From contig NZ_JABTYE010000003.1 of assembly GCF_013314895.1 (NCBI RefSeq), forward strand, positions 1-64,000: 64,000 bases of DNA. Reading direction: 5' to 3'. Both the position numbers and the translations under genes were made by a program. The DNA is from Cupriavidus gilardii. GTDB lineage: Bacteria > Pseudomonadota > Gammaproteobacteria > Burkholderiales > Burkholderiaceae. The notes under the pieces are model-generated. The model did not search any database. It saw only the letters and a program-made list of their open reading frames with translations, and was not told the origin of the DNA. Numbering within the stretch: position 1 is the first letter of the stretch; the number at the start of each line of letters is the position of its first letter. Below, in pieces: positions 35,910-46,410 of the stretch.

Positions 35910-37139
35910 TCAGACTGCGCCGGCCGCGCGCAGCGCCTCGATCTGCGCGGGCGTGCGGCCCAGCCACTCGAGGATCTCGGTGGTGTGCTCGCCCAGCAGC
36001 GGCGAGCGATCGACCTGGACCGGGGATTCCGACAGGTTGATCGGACAGCCGAGCTGCACATAGCGGCCGCGCTGCGGGTGATCGACCTCGACCAGGTAGC
36101 CGCGCTCGTACAGCGAGCGGTCCTCGATCAGGTCCTTCATCGACAGGATCGGGCCGCACGGCACGTCGACCTCGTTGAGCGCTTCCATGACCTCGAACTT
36201 GGTGCGCGTGCGCGTCCATTTCTCGATGATCGAGAAGCATTCGGGCAGGCATTTGAGGCGGGCCTCCGGCGTGGCGAACTGAGGATGCGAGATCAGGTCC
36301 TCGCGCCCGCACAGCCGCATCAGCGGTTCCCAGCCCTGCGGTTGCACGATCACGTAGACGTAATCGTTGGCCCCGCCCGGTGCGCAGCGCAGCGCCGCGC
36401 CCGGCTGCCCGCCGCCCGAGGCATTGCCCGCGCGCGGCACGTAGTCGCCGAATTCCTTGTTCGGGTACTCGCGCAGCGCGCCGGCCGCCAGGCGCTGCTG
36501 ATCACGCAGCTTGACGCGGCACAGGTTCAGCACCGCGTCCTGCATCGCGACCTCGACGCGCTGGCCCTTGCCGGTCTGCTCGCGCTGCAGCAGCGCCGCC
36601 AGGATGCCGATCACGCAGTGCACGCCGGTGCCCGAATCGCCGATCTGTGCGCCGGTCACGGTCGGCGGCCCTTCCTCGAAGCCGGTAGTCGATGCCGAAC
36701 CGCCCATGCATTGCGCGACGTTTTCGTACGCCTTGCAGTCGGCATACGGCCCGGGGCCGAAACCCTTGATCGACGCGTAGATCAGCCGCGGATTGAGCGC
36801 GCGCAGCCGGTCCCAGTCGAAGCCCGCGCGATCGAGCACGCCCGGGCCGAAGTTCTCGACCAGCACGTCGCAGCGTTCGACCAGGTCCTCCAGCAGCGCC
36901 TTGCCTTCCGGCGTCTTCATGTTCAGCGTCAGGCTGCGCTTGTTGGAGTTCAGCATCGTGAAATAGAGGCTGTCGGCGTTTGGCACATCGCGCAGCTGGC
37001 TGCGCGTGATATCGCCCCGGCCGGGCAGCTCGACCTTGATCACGTCCGCGCCCAGCCACGCCATCAGCTGCGTGGCCGAGGGCCCCGCCTGCACGTGCGT
37101 CATGTCCAGGATGCGTACTCCTTCCAATGCCTTGCTCAT
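35910..37139 (-). CDS. class III CoA-transferase, formyl-CoA:oxalate CoA-transferase-like (Frc family)
   Basis: A 409-residue CaiB/BaiF-type transferase. The catalytic Asp168 in [12 protein letters not shown] corresponds to Asp169 of Oxalobacter Frc. Long stretches match Frc as I remember it ([61 protein letters not shown]). The Gly-rich loop [15 protein letters not shown] is present. It would swap CoA from formyl-CoA to the incoming acid and release formate for the formate dehydrogenase encoded at 24022-28603. Oxalate is the best-known acceptor, but a 2-hydroxy acid is equally possible given the lyase type next door. Confidence 0.88.
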
Positions 37140-37310
37140 GGCGTCGTCTCCTCGCCTCTATGGTGTGATCGTGGGTTGCTAGGGAGCCAGGTCCGCGCGG
37201 CCGATGCAGCGAGGGCGTGCGCCGCCCGCCGGATGCGTGGGTCTTGCGCAAACCCGCGCATCCGGTACCGCTCGCCGCGATCGCGCTGTCGGCCGGTGGC
37301 CGGCCGCCGG

Positions 37311-39065
37311 CTACTTGTACATGGTCTGGTTCTTGGTGCCCGGGGCGTATTCGCGCGGATCGACCCAGATATTGATCACCGCGGACTTGCCGGTGCGGGC
37401 GATCGACTCGCGTCCGCGCTGCAGCGCGCCGGCGATCTGCGCGGGATCCCGTACCTCCTCGCCGTAGCCGCCGAGCATCTGCGCGAACTGGCTGAACGGC
37501 ACGTCGGACAGCAGGTTGCCGACGTTGCCGCGCGACTCGCCGTACTTGGCCAGCTGCCCGTAGCGGATCTGGTTCATCGCCGAGTTGTTGCCGATCACGG
37601 CCAGGTACGGCACGCCGAAGCGGTTGGCGGTCTCCATGTCGAAGGCCGTCATGCCGAAGGAGCCGTCGCCGTAGTAGCACAGCACCTCCTTGCCCGGATT
37701 GGCCAGACCCGCGGCGATGGCAAAGCCGGTGCCGACGCCGAGCGAGCCCAGCGCACCCGGATCCATCCACTGGCCGGGATTGCGGGGCCGCACCGCCTGC
37801 GCGGAGATCGTGACCACATCGCCGCCGTCGCCGATGTAGATGGTGTCTTCGCCGAGGAAGTTGTTCAGCTCGTAGGCGACGCGATACGGATGGATCGGCG
37901 TGTTCTCCGACAGGAACAGCGGCATCAGCTTCTCGGTGGCCACGCCCTCCGCCTCGGTCAGGTCGGCCATCCACTTGCGGCGCGCCTGGCGCTTGTCCTG
38001 CTTGATGCGCGCGGTGGCGGCCTGCAGCACGGCGCCGAGAATCGCGCCGGGATCGCCGACCAGGCCCAGATCGATCTCGCGGTTCTTGCCGACGGTGCGG
38101 TAGTCCATGTCGATCTGCACCAGCGTCAGCTCCTTGCTGATGCGCTTGCCGTAGCCCATGCGGAAGTCGAACGGCGTGCCGACGATGACCAGCACATCGG
38201 CATTGGCAAACGCCTGCGAGCGGGTGCGGTCGAAATGATGCGGATCGCCCGGCGGCAGCAGCCCGCGGCTGGCGCCATTGAAATAGCCCGGGATATCGAG
38301 CCCGCGCAGCAGCGCGATCGCTTCCTCGTGGCCGCGTGCGGTCCACACCTGCTGGCCGAACAGGATCGCCGGACGCTCGGCGTTGACCAGGATGTCGGCG
38401 AGCTTCTCGATGTCGCGCGGATCGCCGATCGACTTGGTCGAGGCGCGATAGTGGCCGGGGCGCGGCACCACCGCGCGCGCGACGTCGACCTCGCGGTCCA
38501 GCACGTCGCGCGGAATCTCCAGATAGGCGGGCCCGGGCGCGCCGTTGAAGCACTCGCGCGCGGCCATCGAAATCATGTCGGCGACGCGCTCGGTGCTCGG
38601 CACGGTGGCGGCGAACTTGGTAATCGGCGCCATCATGTCGACGTGCGGCAGATCCTGCAGCGAGCCCATCTTGTGCTGCGTCAGCGCGCCCTGCCCCCCG
38701 ATATGCAGCACCGGGCTTTCGGAGCGGAAGGCGGTGGCGATGCCGGTCACGGCATTGGTGCAGCCCGGCCCGGCCGTCGTCACCACGCAGCCAAGCTTGC
38801 CGGTCTGGCGCGCATAGCCGTCGGCCGCATGCGCCGCGACCTGTTCATGACGTACGTCGATGATGCGGATCCCCTCGTCGACGCAGCCATCGTAGATGTC
38901 GATGATATGGCCGCCGCATAGCGTGAAGATGGTATCGACCCCTTCGTTCTTCAGCGCCCGCGCGACCAGATGGCCGCCCGACACGATGCCGGCATCCCGG
39001 CTCTTCTGCTTCAGGGTGTCATCGGCCGTCGTCGATTCCGGCCGCAGCGATACGACTGCAGACAT
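37311..39065 (-). CDS. ThDP-dependent 2-hydroxyacyl-CoA lyase / oxalyl-CoA decarboxylase-family enzyme
   Basis: A 584-residue ThDP enzyme with the acetolactate-synthase domain order. The catalytic Glu74 is in DVRHEQVAAHAADG, and the ThDP/Mg site is GDGSFGMTAFDMETANRFG ending in IGNNSAMN. The N-terminal part (DTIFTLCGGHIIDIYDGC, then GIRIIDVRHEQ) resembles the IlvG/ILVBL (HACL2-like) branch more than Oxalobacter Oxc. With Frc next to it, the expected product is formyl-CoA plus CO2 (from oxalyl-CoA) or an aldehyde/ketone (from a 2-hydroxyacyl-CoA). ATG 39065 has GAGGAG upstream. It is the first gene of a five-gene operon, with a GntR box 123 bp upstream. Confidence 0.8.
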   Translation of the reverse strand: MSAVVSLRPESTTADDTLKQKSRDAGIVSGGHLVARALKNEGVDTIFTLCGGHIIDIYDGCVDEGIRIIDVRHEQVAAHAADGYARQTGKLGCVVTTAGPGCTNAVTGIATAFRSESPVLHIGGQGALTQHKMGSLQDLPHVDMMAPITKFAATVPSTERVADMISMAARECFNGAPGPAYLEIPRDVLDREVDVARAVVPRPGHYRASTKSIGDPRDIEKLADILVNAERPAILFGQQVWTARGHEEAIALLRGLDIPGYFNGASRGLLPPGDPHHFDRTRSQAFANADVLVIVGTPFDFRMGYGKRISKELTLVQIDMDYRTVGKNREIDLGLVGDPGAILGAVLQAATARIKQDKRQARRKWMADLTEAEGVATEKLMPLFLSENTPIHPYRVAYELNNFLGEDTIYIGDGGDVVTISAQAVRPRNPGQWMDPGALGSLGVGTGFAIAAGLANPGKEVLCYYGDGSFGMTAFDMETANRFGVPYLAVIGNNSAMNQIRYGQLAKYGESRGNVGNLLSDVPFSQFAQMLGGYGEEVRDPAQIAGALQRGRESIARTGKSAVINIWVDPREYAPGTKNQTMYK

Positions 39066-39187
39066 GTGTTGGTCTCCTCGTTGGACTCCGGGCGGCCCCG
39101 TGGTATGGGCACGCACCGCTTCACCTTCTTCTCGGCAGGGCTGCCGGCTTGCGACGCGAATCGATCGTTTCGGGCGATCTTGATGAC

Positions 39188-39208
39188 ATACCGTATGTGA
39201 TATATCAA
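39188..39208 (+). promoter_or_regulatory. GntR box 3, before the acyl-CoA lyase operon
   Basis: ATACCGTAT followed by GTGATATATCAA; it differs from box 1 in one base. Both half-palindromes (ATACCGTAT-like and TGATATATCA) are present. Confidence 0.75.
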
Positions 39209-39388
39209 AGGTGAGCAAGGAGAAAATGTGGGAGAGACGCCGACTTTCGACGACGCAACGCAGCAAAACGGCCGTTTTCGTGCCGATAAATTCGGCCAAC
39301 TTCTATAAACACTGCCGCTCAGTGGTGGACTGCATCAATGCTGGATGTGATTGGGGACGTGGGTTCGAGCACCAAATATTTCGCCTTG

Positions 39389-39417
39389 TTGTGTCTTGAT
39401 ATATTACATACCATATT
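39389..39417 (+). promoter_or_regulatory. predicted sucCD promoter overlapped by GntR box 4
   Basis: TTGTGT (39389-39394), a 17-bp spacer and CATATT (39412-39417). The box (39396-39416; core on the minus strand GTATGTAATATATCAA) fills the whole spacer and most of the -10, a layout that predicts repression by steric block. Confidence 0.6.
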
Positions 39418-39492
39418 CACGCAGGCGCCCGGCGCAATGCCGCCCCATCCTGTCAGCCACCACAACGACGTATCCAAACCAGTGAGGAGACA

Positions 39493-40701
39493 GTGAACAT
39501 TCACGAATATCAGGCCAAGGAGTTGCTGCGGCGCTACGACGTCGCCGTGCCGCGCGGCGCGGTTGCGTTCACGCCGGACGAGGCAGCGAACGCGGCGCGC
39601 ACGCTAGGGGGCCCGCTGTGGGTCGTCAAATCGCAGATCCATGCCGGCGGTCGCGGCGCCGGACGCTTTCAGAACGATCCCGGCGGCAAGGGCGGCGTGC
39701 GCGTGGCACGTTCGCTCGAGGCCGTGCGCGAGGAAGCCGGCAAGATGCTCGGTGCGGTGCTGGTCACGAAGCAGACCGGCGCTGCGGGGCGGGAGGTGCG
39801 GCGCCTCTATATCGAGGAAGGCTGCGACATCGCACGCGAGCTCTATTTCGGCATGCTGATCGACCGCGCGACGTCGCGGATCACGCTGATGGCATCGACC
39901 GAAGGCGGCATGGACATCGAGGAAGTGGCCGCGCACACGCCGGAAAAGATCCTGAAGCTGGCGATCGATCCGGCCACCGGTATCCAGCCCTTCCACGCGC
40001 GGCGCCTGGCCTTCGGGCTCGGCCTGCGCGGCAAGCAGATCGGCGAGGCCACGCGGCTGTTCCTGGCGGCCTATCGCGCCTTCACCGAACTGGACGCGTC
40101 CATCGTCGAGATCAATCCGCTGGTCGTCACGCACAGCGGCCACGTGATGGCGCTGGACGCCAAGTTCAACTTCGACGACAACGCGCTGTTCCGCCATGCC
40201 GATATCGAGGCGATGCGCGACGAGGCCGAGGAAGACCCGGCCGAGACCGAGGCCGCGCGCCATGCGCTGAACTACGTCAAGCTCGACGGCAATATCGGCT
40301 GCATGGTCAATGGCGCCGGCCTGGCGATGGCGACGATGGACATCATCCAGCTGCACGGCGGCAAGCCGGCCAACTTTCTCGACGTCGGCGGCGGCGCGAC
40401 GCGCGAGCGCGTGGCGGCGGCGTTCCGGCTGATCCTGGCCGACCGCAATGTCGAAGGGATCCTCGTCAATATCTTCGGCGGCATCATGCGCTGCGACGTG
40501 ATCGCCGAGGGCGTGGTCGCGGCCGCGCGCGAGGTCGACCTGACCGTGCCGCTGGTGGTGCGGCTCGAAGGCACCAACGTCGACCTGGGCAAGGCCATCC
40601 TGCGCGATTCGGGATTGCCGATCGTCTCGGCGGACGACCTCGCCGATGCGGCGACCAAGGTGGTGGCTGCCACGCAGGGCAAAAAACGCGGAGGACATTG
40701 A
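39493..40701 (+). CDS. SucC/MtkA-like succinyl-CoA or malate-CoA ligase beta subunit
   Basis: A 402-residue ATP-grasp subunit. The start codon is GTG (39493) with GAGGAG close upstream, and the N-terminus [19 protein letters not shown] is typical. The ATP-grasp region ([14 protein letters not shown]), EINPLVV, and the C-terminal [12 protein letters not shown] phosphate loop are present. Longer than E. coli SucC (388). Because it is under a GntR box and beside an acyl-CoA lyase operon, it is probably a catabolic paralogue. It may make succinyl-CoA as CoA donor for Frc, or activate malate or another hydroxy acid directly. Confidence 0.88.
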
Positions 40702-40702
40702 A

Positions 40703-41578
40703 ATGGCCGTGCTGATCGACAACAACACCCGCGTGCTGTGCCAGGGCCTGACCGGCGCGCAGGGCAGTTTCCACACCGAACAGGCGCTGGCCTATGGCAC
40801 GAAGATGGTCGGCGGCGTGACGCCCGGCAAGGGCGGCGAATCGCATCTGGGCCTGCCGGTGTTCGACACGGTGGCCGAGGCGGCCGAGCGTACCGGTGCC
40901 CAGGCCTCCGTGATCTACGTGCCGCCACCCTTCGCCGCCGACGCGATCCTCGAAGCGGTCGACGCCGGCCTCGAGTTGGTGGTCTGCATCACCGAGGGCA
41001 TCCCGGTGCTGGACATGGTGCGCGTCAAGCGCGCGCTGTCCGGCTCGCGCACGCGCCTGGTCGGTCCGAACTGTCCCGGCGTGATCACCCCGGGGCAATG
41101 CAAGATCGGCATCATGCCGGGCCATATCCATCGGCCCGGCAGGATCGGCGTGGTGTCGCGCTCCGGCACGCTGACCTATGAAGCGGTGGCGCAGACCAGC
41201 GCGGCCGGGCTCGGGCAGTCGACCTGCATCGGCATCGGCGGCGATCCCGTCAACGGCACCAACTTCATCGATTGCCTGAAGCTGTTTCTCGAGGACGACG
41301 ACACCGAGGGCATCATCATGATCGGCGAGATCGGCGGCTCGGCGGAGGAGGAAGCCGCGCAGTTCCTGCGCGAGTCCGGCAGCGACAAGCCGGTGGTCGG
41401 CTTTATCGCCGGCACCACGGCGCCGCCGGGCCGGCGCATGGGCCATGCCGGTGCGATCATCTCGGGCGGCAGCGGTACCGCCGACGCGAAGATCGAGGCG
41501 ATGCGCGCGGCCGGCATCCACGTGCCGCGCTCGCCGGCCGAACTGGGGCAGACCATGGCGAAAGCCCTGAACAGGTAG
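40703..41578 (+). CDS. SucD/MtkB-like succinyl-CoA or malate-CoA ligase alpha subunit
   Basis: A 291-residue subunit with the CoA-binding Rossmann domain ([22 protein letters not shown]) and [15 protein letters not shown]. The phosphohistidine is in [19 protein letters not shown] near residue 250. It begins 1 bp after the sucC stop with its own GGAGG, so the pair is co-translated. The specificity between succinate, malate and other acids cannot be read by eye; the genuine TCA-cycle pair is expected elsewhere in the genome. Confidence 0.9.
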
Positions 41579-42054
41579 CACAGGCGGTCTTGCCCCCCAA
41601 CGAGCCGCTGCCGTTGCCGCGCAGCGGTGGCGGCTCGCCCGGTTTTCCATTCCCTGACATTCCCTGTCATTCCCCTCCAGCGCTTCGGCGCTTCGGCGCT
41701 TCGGCGTACCGACCTGTGCCACCGGCATCCGGGCGCCAAACCCTCCTCGCCGTTTTTCGCCATCCGCCATATCGGCGCGAATGGTTATATCGCGACGGCT
41801 GTCATCCCGGCGAAATGCGAATCGCGTATGGAAACCATACAAGCTCGCGACATGCAGAGGAAAATTTTCAAGTCTGCTATAGAAAATTCCGACTTCTGAT
41901 GCAGAGGTGGCGTGCCTTATGATCAGCGCACAGTCACGGCAGCATTTAAAAACCGGATAAAAAATGCTGTGATCTGTATTTCCGATATATCTATATCGCC
42001 CGCCGTTTATTGCCGCGCGGGATATACCGACACGCTCACACAAAGGGAATCGAC
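41579..42054. other. AT-richer, palindrome-rich DNA upstream of the P450 cluster
   Basis: 476 bp without a supported gene. It holds three exact 8-bp tandem copies of CGCTTCGG (41681-41704), a 6-bp hairpin GTATGG/CCATAC (41826-41840), the palindrome GAAAATTTTC (41860-41869), an 8-bp inverted repeat CAGCATTT/AAATGCTG (41940-41969), and CGATATA/TATATCG (41983-41998) just before the methyltransferase ribosome-binding site. The last two are good operator candidates for the cluster. Confidence 0.6.
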
Positions 42055-43104
42055 ATGGACATGCTCGCCGTGCAACGCGACCTCGCCATCCAGACCGAAG
42101 ACAAATCCGGCCTCTATGTGCTCGATATGGCGATGGGGTACTCCGTTCAGGCCGCGCTGCGCGTTGCCGCGATGCTGGGTCTTGCCGACCATCTTCGCGA
42201 TGGCCCGAAGACCGCCGCGGAGTTGGGCGCGGCAACCGAGTCGGAGCCGCGCCGGCTGACGCAGGTGCTGCGCCTGCTGTGCACCAGGGAGGTATTCCGC
42301 GAAGATGAACAGGGCCGCTACCACCTGACACCGGCCGCCGAAAACCTGCGCAGCGACCATCCCCGCTCGTTGCGCGACGCGGTGATGATGATCACCCATC
42401 CGGCACTGTGGAACTCGGCCAGCCAGCTGATCGAGACCGTCAAGGGCCGCTCCGCCTTCAAGAAGTCGTCCGGCATGTATTTCTGGGAATACTGGGCCAA
42501 GGCCGAGCAGGACCAGGAACACTTCGATGTCGGCATGCGCTCGATGTCGCTGCCCGAGAACGAATTCCTGCTCGCGGCCTGTGAATTCCCCGAACATGCG
42601 ACCGTGGTCGATATCGCCGGCGGCCAGGGCGGCATGCTGCTGCGCGTGCTGCAGCTCAATCCGACCGTGCGCGGCATCCTGTTCGACCAGCAGCACGTGC
42701 TGCCCAAGCACCGCCTCGGCGAGCTGGGCGACGACAGCCGCTGGCAGCTGGCGGCCGGCGACTTCTTCAAGGAAGGCGACATTCCGGCCGGCGCTGACAT
42801 CTACACGGCCAAGTACATCACGCACGACTGGGCGGATGCCGACGCCATCCGCATCCTGCGCAACGTGCGCAAGGCAATGACCAAACCCGGCAGCAAGCTG
42901 CTGGTGATGGATGCCGTGATCGAACCGGGCAGCAACAAGCCCGATACCGGCAGGGTGATGGACGTGGTCTGTGCGGCCATCTACGCCAGCATGGAGCGCA
43001 CCGAGGAAGAACACCGCCATATCCTCGAACAGGCGGGATTCCGGCTGAATCGCATTATCGACACCGGCATGTATATCAAGGTGGTGGAAGCGATTCCGGT
43101 CTGA
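42055..43104 (+). CDS. SAM-dependent O-methyltransferase of the plant-type (Methyltransf_2) family
   Basis: A 349-residue enzyme. A winged-helix dimerisation domain (residues about 20-110: VQAALRVAAMLGLADHL, TAAELGAATESEPRRLTQVLRLL) is followed by the Rossmann domain with VVDIAGGQGGMLLRV and the catalytic-His region ITHDWADADAIRILRN. Such enzymes methylate hydroxyls on phenolic, polyketide or similar small molecules. ATG 42055 follows AAAGGGA. It is the first of four genes (with FAD protein, P450 and ferredoxin) that look like a tailoring cluster; a hairpin at 43120 may partly end its transcript. Confidence 0.88.
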   Translation: MDMLAVQRDLAIQTEDKSGLYVLDMAMGYSVQAALRVAAMLGLADHLRDGPKTAAELGAATESEPRRLTQVLRLLCTREVFREDEQGRYHLTPAAENLRSDHPRSLRDAVMMITHPALWNSASQLIETVKGRSAFKKSSGMYFWEYWAKAEQDQEHFDVGMRSMSLPENEFLLAACEFPEHATVVDIAGGQGGMLLRVLQLNPTVRGILFDQQHVLPKHRLGELGDDSRWQLAAGDFFKEGDIPAGADIYTAKYITHDWADADAIRILRNVRKAMTKPGSKLLVMDAVIEPGSNKPDTGRVMDVVCAAIYASMERTEEEHRHILEQAGFRLNRIIDTGMYIKVVEAIPV

Positions 43105-43119
43105 TTTCCATCTGACAGC

Positions 43120-43142
43120 GGCGCAGGCGTATTGCCTGCGCC
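43120..43142 (+). terminator. hairpin after the O-methyltransferase gene
   Basis: Perfect 9-bp stem GGCGCAGGC (43120-43128) and GCCTGCGCC (43134-43142) with loop GTATT, 16 bp after the stop codon. No T-run follows, so it may attenuate or stabilise instead of ending transcription. A second stem, CGGCCGC/GCGGCCG, is at 43169-43189. Confidence 0.45.
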
Positions 43143-43308
43143 AATTCAGGGCGGTGCCAATCGAATTTCGGCCGCGCAATATGCGGCCGGGGGATTCCAT
43201 TGTCCTCGATAATCGGATCGATTGAATATCCGATGATTCAACTCAATCGACAACAATAAAAACAATGGCATCGCAGCGAGAATTATTTCATTTCCATTCG
43301 AGCCGATA

Positions 43309-44880
43309 ATGAATAGTCTTGCGCAAAGGCGTCTGGCGATCGTGGGCGGCGGCGCAGCCGGGGTCGCCATGTTCATCGCCGCGGTTCAGCGGGGAACTGC
43401 GGACCGCATCTTCGTCGTCGAGCCTGGCGTCATCGGGCCGGGCGCCGCGTTCTCTCCCCCCGATCATGATCTGATTTGCAACACCTCGGTCGACATCATG
43501 TCGATCGTGCCCGGCAAACCGCTGGACTTTCTCGATTACCTGACGGCCAACGGCCACGCGGCGACCGCGGAAAGCTTCGTGCCGCGCCGGATCTACGGCG
43601 ACTATCTGGCCGATCGGTTTCATCGGTATGCGAGGCTGGCCCGGGCGCGCGGCATCGAGGTCACCCATCTGCCATATCGCTTCCGGGCGCTGAAGCGGCT
43701 CGGCCATCGCCGGTATGCGCTCGAATTCGAGGACGCCGTCACCGCCGCGGAGCCGATCGTTTCGGATGTCGTCTTCTGCATCGGCGGCGGCTCGCCGCGC
43801 CTGCCCGAGGCATTTGCCCCGCATCGCGGACACCCGCATCTCGTCCGTTGCCCATACGACGAGGCGGAAATGCGGGCCAAGGTCCCGCCGCGGTCGCAAG
43901 TGCTGGTGATCGGCAGCAAGCTGTCGGCGATCGATGCCACGCTGCTGCTATGCCGGGCCGGCCATCGCGTGACCATGCTGTCGCCGTCGGGGCGGCTTCC
44001 GGCCGTGCGCGCCCGCTTCATGTGGGGCAACGAAGTCCCGATCGATGCGAACGGCCTGTTGCAGGCGATGACCCGCTGGGACGGGCCTGCCGACGCGCCC
44101 TTGCCCGGCGCGCTCGGGTTCGGCTATCGAAAGTACTTTGCACGCGCGGTCCGTGCCTGCACCGGCCGATCCTGGCGCGCGCAGTTTTCGCTGGCGGAGC
44201 GGGCCGACCAACGACTCCGCGAGGACATCGCGATTGCGGAGCACGGCGGCACAGTCTGGCAAGACTGGGTCGTCAAGTTCGTCAACACGGCCAACTCGCT
44301 CTACCTGGACCACGGCGAGCGACGCATCGGCGGATTCCATCCCGAGTTCGGTTCGCTTCTGTTCGAATACCTGACCGCGGCGGCACTGCCCAATGCCAGG
44401 AAGATCCTGCGCTATCTGGAAAGTGGGCAGCTGACCGTCGAACGAGGCGAACCGCGCGATGTCGCGGCGGAACACGGCGGCCTGGGATGCTGGCGCATCG
44501 ATTGGGGCGGCGGCGAACAACACTTCGATGCGGTGGTCAATGCAGCCGGATTCCACGCGCCCTGCTTCGCGCTGAACGTCGATGGCGAGATCGAGGCCCA
44601 GTCCGACGGACGACGCGCCGTCGCGCCGATCCGGGCCTCGACCGACCTGTCCGCCCGGATTGCCCAATGGGGCAACACGGAGAACATCTGGCTCACTGGC
44701 GCGTCGCTGCAAGGGCGGCTGCTGACCGCCAGCGCCATCTTCATCATCACGAGCCTGGCCGACCGGATCGCCGCCGCGATGCTGCGCCCGCCTTTGCGCA
44801 GCAACGTCGACATCGAACCGCGCGCTGCCGGTCTCGTGCTGGCCCCTGCGGCCGCCACCGCAATGGCAACACGCCTCTAG
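43309..44880 (+). CDS. FAD/NAD(P)-binding protein of the NAD_binding_9 type
   Basis: A 523-residue flavoprotein. An N-terminal dinucleotide fold has LAIVGGGAAGVAMF, and a second Rossmann motif is SQVLVIGSKLSAIDATLLLCRAGH near residue 200. NAAGF and WLTGASLQGRLLTASAIFI lie near the C-terminus. This type is found near biosynthetic enzymes and is not well characterised; it might oxidise a substrate or deliver electrons. Located in front of the P450 (41-bp gap) and therefore likely to work on the same molecule. It does not look like a classic ferredoxin reductase. Confidence 0.75.
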   Translation: MNSLAQRRLAIVGGGAAGVAMFIAAVQRGTADRIFVVEPGVIGPGAAFSPPDHDLICNTSVDIMSIVPGKPLDFLDYLTANGHAATAESFVPRRIYGDYLADRFHRYARLARARGIEVTHLPYRFRALKRLGHRRYALEFEDAVTAAEPIVSDVVFCIGGGSPRLPEAFAPHRGHPHLVRCPYDEAEMRAKVPPRSQVLVIGSKLSAIDATLLLCRAGHRVTMLSPSGRLPAVRARFMWGNEVPIDANGLLQAMTRWDGPADAPLPGALGFGYRKYFARAVRACTGRSWRAQFSLAERADQRLREDIAIAEHGGTVWQDWVVKFVNTANSLYLDHGERRIGGFHPEFGSLLFEYLTAAALPNARKILRYLESGQLTVERGEPRDVAAEHGGLGCWRIDWGGGEQHFDAVVNAAGFHAPCFALNVDGEIEAQSDGRRAVAPIRASTDLSARIAQWGNTENIWLTGASLQGRLLTASAIFIITSLADRIAAAMLRPPLRSNVDIEPRAAGLVLAPAAATAMATRL

Positions 44881-44921
44881 CGCGCATTTCGACACGCTTC
44901 CCCCATTTGCGAGCCACCACC

Positions 44922-46133
44922 ATGGACATGCTGACCCGACCGGACCTGTCGTCCGACCAGTTCTTTGAAGACCGCTACGCAAGCTACCGCGTGCTGCGCG
45001 ATCGCTTCCCGTTCTTCGATACCGAGATCGATGGCGAGCCCTGCGTCGTCATCACACGCCATGCGGACGTCGACCAGGTGCTGCGCCACCCGCTCGTCAC
45101 GGCCCAGCCGGAGCCGGGCAAGTTTCCGGCCCGTGTGGGCAACGGTCCGGCCGCACGGCACTATCGCGAATCGCTGCCGAGCCTGGACCATCCGGAACAT
45201 ACGCGCATTCGGCGGATCCTGACGCCGGCGTTCATGCCCAAGGCCGTCGCGAAAATGCGCGAGCGCATCGAGCGCGCGATCGAGCGTCATCTGGACAGGC
45301 TGGCGCAGGAGTCCGAAGCCGATTTCATCGATGTCTTCGCCCAGCCGCTGGCGATCGAGCTGGCCAGTTTGCTGATGCACATGTCGATCGAGCAGGCGAC
45401 GCAGGTATTGGAGCGTTCGCAGGAACTGATTGCCGTGCTGGGCGTGACCAGCATGGGCGAAGGCGCGCTCGAGGCAGCGGACAAGGCCGGCAGCTATTGC
45501 CAGGCTTATGTGGACGACGTGGTCCAGGCGCTGAAGCGGCAACCATTGCCTGCCGACGATTTCGTCGGCGTGATGCTGGCGTCCGAAGGCAAGGAAGGAG
45601 GGATGACGCGCTCCGAGATCGTGACGACCATCATCGGCGTGATCATCGCGGCCTACCATACGTCGAAGGCGATGTTCGCGACGACGACGCTGGCCTTGCT
45701 CAGACATCCAGACCAGAAAGCGCGGCTGGTTGCCGATCCCGGCCTGGCCCGTTCCTGCTGGGAGGAGGGTCTGCGGTTCGACGGGCCGGTGCATTTCATG
45801 CACCGGTATGCGAGCCAGCCGATCACGGTCGGCGACAGGGTGCTCGAGCCCGGACGCCGCCTCGTGGTCGGCCTGCAGGCCGGCAACCGCGACGAGCGGC
45901 GTTTCCCGGAGCCGGATCGCTTCATCATCGACCGCACCGACAATCGGCACCTCGCCTTTGCCGGCGGCCCGCATTTCTGCATCGGTGCACAGCTCGTGCG
46001 GCTCGAAGGCGAGCTGCTGTTTCAGCGGCTGTTCCAGCGTTTCCCCAACATGGCGCTCCAGGGCCTGCAGTACGCGCCGATTCGGGATATCTCATTCCCG
46101 ATGCTGCTCAAGCTGACGGTCTCACTGCGCTGA
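44922..46133 (+). CDS. cytochrome P450
   Basis: A 403-residue soluble bacterial P450. The heme ligand is Cys353 in FAGGPHFCIGAQ, ExxR is at 282-285 (EGLR), and the I-helix oxygen-activation motif is AAYHT at 243-247 where AGxET/D/T is usual: the Gly and the acidic residue are replaced by Ala and Tyr-His, while the Thr is kept. It is followed 10 bp later by a 3Fe-4S-type ferredoxin gene, its probable redox partner. The missing acid residue suggests unusual oxygen or proton handling, or a peroxygenase-like or non-hydroxylating reaction. Confidence 0.93.
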   Translation: MDMLTRPDLSSDQFFEDRYASYRVLRDRFPFFDTEIDGEPCVVITRHADVDQVLRHPLVTAQPEPGKFPARVGNGPAARHYRESLPSLDHPEHTRIRRILTPAFMPKAVAKMRERIERAIERHLDRLAQESEADFIDVFAQPLAIELASLLMHMSIEQATQVLERSQELIAVLGVTSMGEGALEAADKAGSYCQAYVDDVVQALKRQPLPADDFVGVMLASEGKEGGMTRSEIVTTIIGVIIAAYHTSKAMFATTTLALLRHPDQKARLVADPGLARSCWEEGLRFDGPVHFMHRYASQPITVGDRVLEPGRRLVVGLQAGNRDERRFPEPDRFIIDRTDNRHLAFAGGPHFCIGAQLVRLEGELLFQRLFQRFPNMALQGLQYAPIRDISFPMLLKLTVSLR

Positions 46134-46143
46134 GGAGCGGGCC

Positions 46144-46410
46144 ATGGATGACCTTCGCGTCGAAATGCGACCGGGCGCCTGCTGCGGGTTCGGCAACTGC
46201 GCCGCATTGGCCCCGCAGGTGTTCGTCTTCGATCCGGAACGGCACAAGCTGAAGTACATCGACCAGTCCCACGTTGCGGCGCAGCTCGCGCAGGTGCGCC
46301 AAGCGGTGGCCGAATGTCCCGCGGGAACGCTGGTGCTGGTGCGAGCCGCCGCCGCTGGACAGGAACCGGCGGCGGCAGCGGCTACACCCCGATCAGGCTG
46401 CGCGCGATGA
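46144..46410 (+). CDS. 3Fe-4S-type ferredoxin, P450 partner
   Basis: An 88-residue protein. The cluster ligands are Cys13 and Cys19 in GACCGFGNCAALAP (C-x5-C) and the Cys of AECPAG near residue 58, so the pattern is that of single-cluster P450 ferredoxins; Cys14 is an extra cysteine. The C-terminal tail (AAAGQEPAAAAATPRSGCAR) is unusual and overlaps by 29 bp the 3' end of the convergent acyl-CoA dehydrogenase gene. No ferredoxin reductase gene is nearby. Confidence 0.88.
   Translation: MDDLRVEMRPGACCGFGNCAALAPQVFVFDPERHKLKYIDQSHVAAQLAQVRQAVAECPAGTLVLVRAAAAGQEPAAAAATPRSGCAR

Follow-up and report, generated by a model that had tools for sequence, protein, structure and literature searches.

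In this work we analysed a block of four genes in Cupriavidus gilardii, located in the first 64,000 nucleotides of contig NZ_JABTYE010000003.1, a stretch which we call the window. The block is a cassette of about 4.8 kb that, judged against close relatives, is single and clean, and it encodes a methyltransferase, a flavoprotein, a cytochrome P450 and a ferredoxin. Our preferred reading, to which we give a probability of about one half, is that the cassette is a horizontally acquired, self-contained set for the modification of a metabolite. Its core would consist of an oxygenase of the N-hydroxylase kind and an S-adenosylmethionine (SAM) dependent methyltransferase, to which a P450/ferredoxin step has been added. 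The evidence is computed and comprises the gene families, an empty site in relatives, the conservation of a gene pair, the sharing of a motif, and purifying selection on the methyltransferase and the P450. From it we infer acquisition from outside, N-oxygenation, the order of the steps, the use of SAM and the electron route.

The substrate of the core enzymes would be a small metabolite, either imported or supplied by another part of the cell. The flavoprotein, a candidate class B enzyme using nicotinamide adenine dinucleotide phosphate (NADPH) and flavin adenine dinucleotide (FAD), would put oxygen on nitrogen or another soft atom; the task of the methyltransferase would be to cap, with the help of SAM, a hydroxyl that is newly made or pre-existing. 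In this lineage the P450 might add one more step, with electrons from the neighbouring 3Fe-4S-type ferredoxin and a reductase encoded elsewhere in the genome.

An earlier note on this DNA, made from the sequence alone, had proposed a four-gene P450 tailoring cluster between catabolic regions. All four genes are found where it placed them, on the + strand and each scoring over its curated Pfam cut-off, and the neighbours of the cassette are indeed metabolic genes of the coenzyme A (CoA) type. We also recognised no scaffold-building enzyme among the scanned neighbours and, like the note, matched the set to no known pathway. A search of open-licence PMC papers found nothing on this cluster, from which we do not claim its absence from print.

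The proposed insertion site in relatives

The SucD-like protein of the window was sought in ten genomes of the same genus, and seven regions were fetched. Two of these show a cassette-free site. In genome G034 (locus L194; SucD-like protein 98% identical) the alignment covers window positions 37000-41569 and restarts at 46367, with 48 bases between. The junction falls in the short gap between the facing stops of the sucD-like and acyl-CoA dehydrogenase genes, and the dehydrogenase next to this empty site shares 92% protein identity with the window copy. In genome G020 (locus L193; SucD-like protein 98%) the alignment ends at window position 41565 and restarts at 46339, again with no cassette. 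The right flank of the G020 site (L193:9900-10100) is rearranged, and the dehydrogenase aligns there by its C-terminal 33 residues only. The remaining five regions contain sucC- and sucD-like genes and gave no match at E<=1e-10 to the cassette or to this dehydrogenase.

In a sister genome (G032) the four genes and their left flank are present, about 94% identical in DNA to the window; the contig ends within the ferredoxin gene. Between window and sister the cassette genes are 94.4-97.0% identical in DNA and the left-flank genes 93.3-94.8%. Because the divergence of the cassette about equals that of the left-flank genes, it was probably already in place before the two lineages split, as far as sequence divergence can tell. 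The four genes of the earlier note thus do behave as one block, with a cassette-free site in two close genomes and the full set in the sister. Two other explanations were rejected. The sister genome speaks against a chance assembly of unrelated genes, as do the empty sites, and a required link to the neighbouring sucC/sucD-like, thiamine pyrophosphate (TPP) enzyme or acyl-CoA dehydrogenase genes is contradicted by relatives that carry these genes without the cassette.

Comparison with the sister, a single genome pair, also gives the ratio of nonsynonymous to synonymous substitution rates (dN/dS). The methyltransferase (0.027) and the P450 (0.028) are under strong purifying constraint, and the flavoprotein (0.233) less so; the flanking sucC-like and sucD-like genes have ratios of 0.098 and 0.059.

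Distribution and the methyltransferase-flavoprotein core

The flavoprotein is rare among the relatives of the window. A full-length match was found in one of the 59 other genomes of the genus (G032, 93%), and at E<=1e-30 the window's own genome is the only match in a 399-genome sample of the order and a 369-genome sample of the class (each including that genome; 3-4 first-look candidates scored per genome). With the starting genome counted, it occurs in 4 of 149 genomes of the family of Xenorhabdus beddingii and in 8 of 144 genomes of the genus of Paraburkholderia solisilvae, where ten candidates per genome were scored. Among plasmids, two of the 99 records matching the flavoprotein cover at least 80% of its length, and the two best rows are from Burkholderia ubonensis and Pantoea anthophila. 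No relative was found in the viral collection for the flavoprotein or P450 alignments.

We read the neighbourhoods of eleven flavoproteins at about 39% identity or more, the window included (window, G032, L029, L066, L067, L028/L069, L070, L071, L072, L073 and L022). A methyltransferase adjoins five of them, and P450 and ferredoxin adjoin two. Beside four more distant flavoproteins (L068, L074, L075, L076) neither the methyltransferase nor P450/ferredoxin was found. The pair is adjacent and co-directional in X. beddingii (L029) and in genomes G834 (L066) and G950 (L067), with methyltransferases 49-51% and flavoproteins 42-45% identical to those of the window; in these three Xenorhabdus-family loci the methyltransferase gene lies directly upstream of the flavoprotein gene, 33-64 bases apart. 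In X. beddingii, the only one of the three pair genomes that was searched for P450s, there is no P450 match at E<=1e-10.

Within the relatives examined, all four genes occur together in the window and one sister genome only. The co-conservation on which the idea of a four-gene cluster depended therefore does not extend past the nearest kin, as elsewhere the methyltransferase-flavoprotein pair occurs without P450 and ferredoxin. A two-gene core of methyltransferase and flavoprotein, with P450 and ferredoxin as an addition, describes the unit better.

The neighbourhoods contain further genes. An AraC-type regulator adjoins the flavoprotein gene in four of the five Paraburkholderia relatives (L069, L070, L071, L073), with none evident in L072; the one at L071:7823-8920 (-) is confirmed by Pfam and the other three are alike by sequence. 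On the B. ubonensis plasmid pRF23, which is typed as conjugative, a 40%-identical flavoprotein gene lies directly 3' of a DUF6421 gene (L022:13783-16416), and this neighbour may be a lead to the function of DUF6421. At L074, L075 and L076 a 34%-identical flavoprotein is found near genes that by eye resemble glutathione S-transferases and transporters of the major facilitator superfamily (MFS). There is a SnoaL-like gene nearby in L074 and L076 and a lysine/ornithine N-monooxygenase gene in L074 and L075; the Pfam check of this neighbourhood covers the SnoaL-like and monooxygenase genes of L074 only.

The flavoprotein

Two dinucleotide-binding motifs are present in the flavoprotein, GGGAAG at residues 13-18 and VLVIGSKLSAID at 198-209, and helices occupy about residues 247-372 of its model, so that a helical stretch separates the second motif from the C-terminal part, the combination that is found in the class B N-hydroxylases FzmM, SidA and PvdA. 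Asn58 is invariant in all 14 aligned relatives, and profile alignment puts it on Asn62 of FzmM, the catalytic Asn of class B enzymes. FzmM is an aspartate N-hydroxylase from Streptomyces in which Asn62 sits over flavin C4a, and among class B monooxygenases this residue is conserved or replaced by Asp/Glu (PMC10404684).

The structure is an AlphaFold2 model built from a 10-sequence alignment, with a predicted local distance difference test score (pLDDT) of 76.5 and a predicted template modelling score (pTM) of 0.80. A Foldseek search with this model returns FzmM at ranks 1-3 (E 3.0e-18 to 1.0e-17), followed by the N-hydroxylases SidA and PvdA. VIA gives FzmM a Z of 23.2 over 453 residues and YpdA, a bacillithiol disulfide reductase, a Z of 23.6 over 303. 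Motifs and model together suggest, as the best reading, a class B N-hydroxylase-like enzyme of the monooxygenase type; a reductase-type function may also be compatible with the fold alone.

This raises the question whether the flavoprotein is the P450's own reductase, with electrons passing from NAD(P)H through flavoprotein and ferredoxin to the P450 and the methyltransferase as the only other catalyst. Gaps of only 41 and 10 bases separate the genes of the three proteins, and in fold the flavoprotein is also similar to disulfide and ferredoxin reductases, with 3ab1 at Foldseek rank 40 and YpdA tying for first by VIA Z. Nevertheless, the same flavoprotein adjoins the methyltransferase in X. 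beddingii, the genome without a P450 match, N-hydroxylases come first in Foldseek, and all 14 aligned relatives keep the catalytic Asn of class B enzymes. The families of P450 ferredoxin reductases are not reached either: Pyr_redox_2 scores 22.8 bits against a cut-off of 26.1 and Reductase_C is missing, whereas a Rhodococcus reductase used as positive control (L019:6435-7652) has both, with 216.9 bits for Pyr_redox_2. We rejected the flavoprotein as an obvious ferredoxin reductase on these family scores and on its occurrence without a P450, and consider the electron route through it improbable.

The Baeyer-Villiger fingerprint FxGxxxHxxx[WFY] was also rejected. It is absent from the window flavoprotein, and four of the 14 relatives match it near the C-terminus, which differs from its usual position.

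The methyltransferase

The best solved relatives of the methyltransferase are AlpH (225 bits), CalO1 (213 bits) and LaPhzM (182 bits). It contains the stretch KYITHDW, in which HDW is kept, as is the Phe that contacts S-adenosylhomocysteine in MmcR; the methyltransferase relatives at L062 and L064 have MDW in place of HDW. The His of HDW is the catalytic residue of Methyltransf_2 O-methyltransferases. The Ala of its AxGxG motif is common to all eight aligned rows.

AlpH couples glutamylhydrazine and works without SAM; its poor SAM binding is tied to CxGxG and L252, and its active site contains K266, H267, H270 and D271 (PMC10477347). At the columns of CxGxG, L252, K266, H267, H270 and D271 the methyltransferase of the window reads AxGxG, Phe, Lys, Tyr, His and Asp. 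AlpH-like chemistry was rejected for this methyltransferase, as the key residues differ, and by its residues it more likely performs ordinary SAM-dependent O-methylation.

The same residues bear on the idea of a set that forms a nitrogen-nitrogen or diazo group, like those of kinamycin and fosfazinomycin. AlpH as the best solved relative of the methyltransferase and FzmM as the first Foldseek match of the flavoprotein both point in this direction. But the features reported to block SAM in AlpH are absent (AxGxG for CxGxG, Phe for L252, Tyr for H267), CalO1 scores nearly as high, and no family named for the formation of nitrogen-nitrogen bonds was matched by any of the four proteins. We find such a set extremely unlikely.

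On the Pectobacterium plasmid Drgb3 (L062:8007-11667) a related methyltransferase occurs without the flavoprotein and is followed by genes for a short-chain dehydrogenase/reductase and an indolepyruvate-decarboxylase-like protein, in surroundings that contain transposase genes.

The P450 and its ferredoxin

By eye, the heme motif FAGGPHFCIG (F346, Cys353, G355) and ExxR (E282/R285) of the P450 superfamily are intact in the P450. In the I-helix it reads AAYHT at residues 243-247, the columns of AGFET in P450eryF. This departs from the usual AGx[D/E]T, which is a common trait of P450s and no requirement. The nearest P450 was found in the plasmid search on pLRE138 of Rhodococcus erythropolis R138 (L019:7980-9194), with 40% identity over 98% of the length; the next row has 33%. 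The Rhodococcus protein reads ASYHT in the same columns, and a PVHF.HRYA stretch is common to both. The earlier note was right that AGxD/ET is replaced by AAYHT, but the motif is not a one-off. Because it is common to the nearest relative found, the His-bearing motif looks like a subfamily trait, as judged from the alignment.

In 104 aligned P450 rows the acid position is Glu in 85, Asp in two and His in two, the window and Rhodococcus proteins only; these loci were picked by similarity, and the two in 104 is not a natural frequency. The rows were drawn from 110 loci, with L019 as the Rhodococcus row. L077 and L146 were excluded because they duplicate the P450s of the sister and of the window, respectively; five further loci were dropped for having no hit at 1e-6, an internal stop or a sequence identical to another row. 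In the tree the window and Rhodococcus P450s stand together on one side of a branch with a Shimodaira-Hasegawa-like approximate likelihood ratio test (SH-aLRT) support of 100. Among the matches listed from 158 related genomes (own included, 11 candidates scored per genome), none exceeds 32% identity besides the window's own P450 and the 99% copy in the sister. Samples of 335 actinomycete genomes and 329 genomes of the phylum (own counted in the latter; five candidates scored per genome) contained nothing comparable: their best matches reached 244.8 and 245.5 bits, and the window's own P450 scored 802.7.

The surroundings of the Rhodococcus P450 allow a different explanation, that the cassette is catabolic or detoxifying, with the P450 starting the breakdown of an environmental compound which flavoprotein and methyltransferase modify further. 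The pLRE138 cluster contains a 2Fe-2S ferredoxin, a ferredoxin reductase, a fumarylacetoacetate-hydrolase-family gene, MFS transporters and hydrolases, and the neighbours of the cassette in the window are CoA-metabolic. However, the family scan found no ring-opening, hydrolytic, transport or regulatory genes in the cassette, methylation usually builds or caps, and the neighbouring genes, which are adjacent in cassette-free relatives, need not share its pathway. We regard a catabolic role as rather unlikely.

A bolder reading is that the cassette performs N-O chemistry. An oxime or a related N-oxide would be formed by the flavoenzyme from an amine or amino acid. The P450 would not act as an ordinary oxygenase but would dehydrate or rearrange this product, for example to a nitrile, with its heme-side His, at the place of the expected proton-relay acid, as acid-base catalyst. 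Capping of a hydroxyl or N-hydroxyl would fall to the methyltransferase, and the ASYHT P450 of Rhodococcus would be a member of this catalytic subfamily too. We raise it because a probable N-hydroxylase is encoded next door and because of the analogy with aldoxime dehydratase, a heme enzyme in which His320 is the acid-base catalyst (PMC5391958). The gene table of the pLRE138 cluster, though incomplete, lists no nitrilase or nitrile hydratase by name, an argument against a nitrile pathway in that cluster. We consider the proposal very unlikely. The CYP51 sterol demethylases carry AGxHT, with His at the acid position followed by Thr. Therefore the His is by itself no proof of unusual chemistry.

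The ferredoxin gene begins 10 bases 3' of the P450 gene, and its product has the motif CXXFXXC(X)nCP (C13, F16, C19, C58-P59) of P450-linked [3Fe-4S] ferredoxins. Ferredoxins of this class are encoded beside P450 genes in many bacteria, and the examined ones hold a 3Fe-4S cluster (PMC6237146). The 3Fe-4S ferredoxin that the earlier note named fits this published motif class and is probably of this type. On plasmids no match to it was found at 1e-3.

Layout of the locus

The positions of the features are listed in Table 1. The stretch upstream of the methyltransferase gene (41579-42054) has a GC content of 56.5% and the gap between the methyltransferase and flavoprotein genes (43105-43308) one of 49.0%, against 62-74% in 1-kb windows. 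We counted perfect inverted repeats with 7-nt arms and a gap of at most 12, using 300 shuffles as control. The gap between the two genes contains five, compared to a shuffled mean of 0.46, and this was reached in none of the 300 shuffles; upstream of the methyltransferase gene there are three against a mean of 0.59, with 20 of 300 shuffles as high. The AT-rich palindromic DNA that had been noticed earlier is thus present, with a weak excess of repeats upstream and a clear one in the gap.

The methyltransferase and flavoprotein genes are 204 bases apart. The repeat 5' of the flavoprotein gene and the hairpin just 3' of the methyltransferase gene suggest two transcription units, one with the methyltransferase and the other with flavoprotein, P450 and ferredoxin.

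Table 1. Coordinates of the cassette, its genes and candidate DNA elements in the window
Feature	Position	Strand	Remarks
Whole inserted cassette	41570..46366	.	sucD-like stop to acyl-CoA dehydrogenase stop; breakpoints from relatives' alignments (L194, L193)
Terminator-like hairpin 3' of sucD-like stop	41601..41637	+	17-nt arms, 82% complementary, 3-nt loop
Palindrome CGATATA-TC-TATATCG upstream of methyltransferase gene, possible operator	41983..41998	.	identical in sister (L027)
Methyltransferase gene, 349 aa	42055..43104	+	Methyltransf_2 115.7 bits; Dimerisation 51 bits (Pfam)
Perfect 9-bp hairpin 3' of methyltransferase gene	43120..43142	+	
Inverted repeat TCGATTGA / TCAATCGA in AT-rich DNA 5' of flavoprotein gene, possible second promoter/operator	43218..43250	.	
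FAD/NADPH flavoprotein gene, 523 aa, class B N-hydroxylase-like	43309..44880	+	NAD_binding_9 82.6 bits, cut-off 21.8
Codon of flavoprotein Asn58, aligned to FzmM Asn62	43480..43482	+	
Cytochrome P450 gene, 403 aa, rare subfamily	44922..46133	+	Pfam p450 97.4 bits, cut-off 22.8
AAYHT codons, P450 residues 243-247	45648..45662	+	His246 for usual acid, Ala244 for Gly
Ferredoxin gene, 88 aa	46144..46410	+	Fer4_13 33.6 bits, cut-off 24.5

To the left of the cassette (37311-41578) lies a gene for a TPP enzyme resembling acetolactate synthase and 2-hydroxyacyl-CoA lyase, divergent from the sucC/sucD-like pair. The SucC-like subunit scores 566.5, just under the malate-CoA ligase cut-off of 604. Close copies of the TPP-enzyme and sucC/sucD-like genes are found together in five of the seven fetched regions.

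Weighing the preferred reading

Several observations weigh against an acquired set with an N-hydroxylase core. Insertion is the simplest reading of the empty sites, and loss from G020 and G034 is possible instead. The GC content at third codon positions is 0.74-0.85 in the four genes and 0.87-0.91 in adjacent genes, yet the lower values are within the range of the window, and the origin is not settled by them. The flavoprotein occurs without the methyltransferase in Paraburkholderia relatives. Its FAD-fold match is unspecific, as thioredoxin reductases and flavin monooxygenases are close and YpdA ties with FzmM, and its sequence-profile match to FzmM (E 0.0025) equals that to an ancestral flavin-containing monooxygenase (0.0024). 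The pLDDT of its model and the ten sequences behind it also count here. Trp51 of FzmM corresponds to Phe48 in the window protein. The aspartate-binding cluster of FzmM consists of Arg13, Arg276, Arg416, Arg577 and Asn413 (PMC10404684), and its arginines are not mappable onto the flavoprotein, the sequence alignment covering FzmM residues 30-167. The methyltransferase has AxGxG instead of GxGxG, the nearest relative of the P450 lies in a catabolic-looking plasmid cluster, and the flavoprotein is the more weakly constrained enzyme. The ferredoxin has a dN/dS of 0.64, over 67 codons only, since the sister contig ends inside its gene.

The cassette nevertheless offers a compact and testable set, with a probable N-hydroxylase, a methyltransferase and a rare His-bearing P450 in one block, and the relatives with the empty site are natural controls. 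As the odd motif is found in two P450s from different phyla, the role of the His can be studied with two different sets of redox partners. If the P450 does perform N-O chemistry, this would be a new type of reaction for bacterial P450s. Even if it does not, a small methyltransferase-flavoprotein module in the relatives of Xenorhabdus is defined by the pair.

Comparison with known systems

Among characterised enzymes, the flavoprotein most resembles the L-aspartate N-hydroxylases of the FzmM/CreE type (8cp2, 8cp5; PMC10404684), which are its first Foldseek matches and with which it has in common the predicted class B fold, aligned by VIA over 453-458 residues, and the catalytic Asn. It differs in length (523 residues against about 600 in FzmM), in an identity of 18-19% and in the Phe for Trp51; no nitrosuccinate partner genes were recognised beside it. 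The methyltransferase belongs to the same fold family as AlpH and CalO1 (8h3t, 3lst), its closest solved sequences, but is without the SAM-excluding residues of AlpH.

With CYP51 the P450 shares the His-Thr pair, whereas the Gly of CYP51 is Ala in the window and Ser in Rhodococcus; no CYP51 is named among its best 60 solved relatives. Unlike the window P450, that of pLRE138 is part of a class I system with a 2Fe-2S ferredoxin and its own reductase, and no methyltransferase is among the genes listed for the 17 kb (the PLSDB gene tables are incomplete). The ferredoxin is comparable to the Fdx6-type ferredoxin of Mycobacterium marinum (PMC6237146), which has the same cluster motif and is encoded beside a P450 gene; for the window protein the 3Fe-4S cluster type is predicted from the motif. 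The pair of X. beddingii (L029) differs from the window in having no P450 or ferredoxin alongside and a gap of 61-64 bases instead of 204, and agrees with it in the same two genes, in the same order and on the same strand, with 51% and 45% identity.

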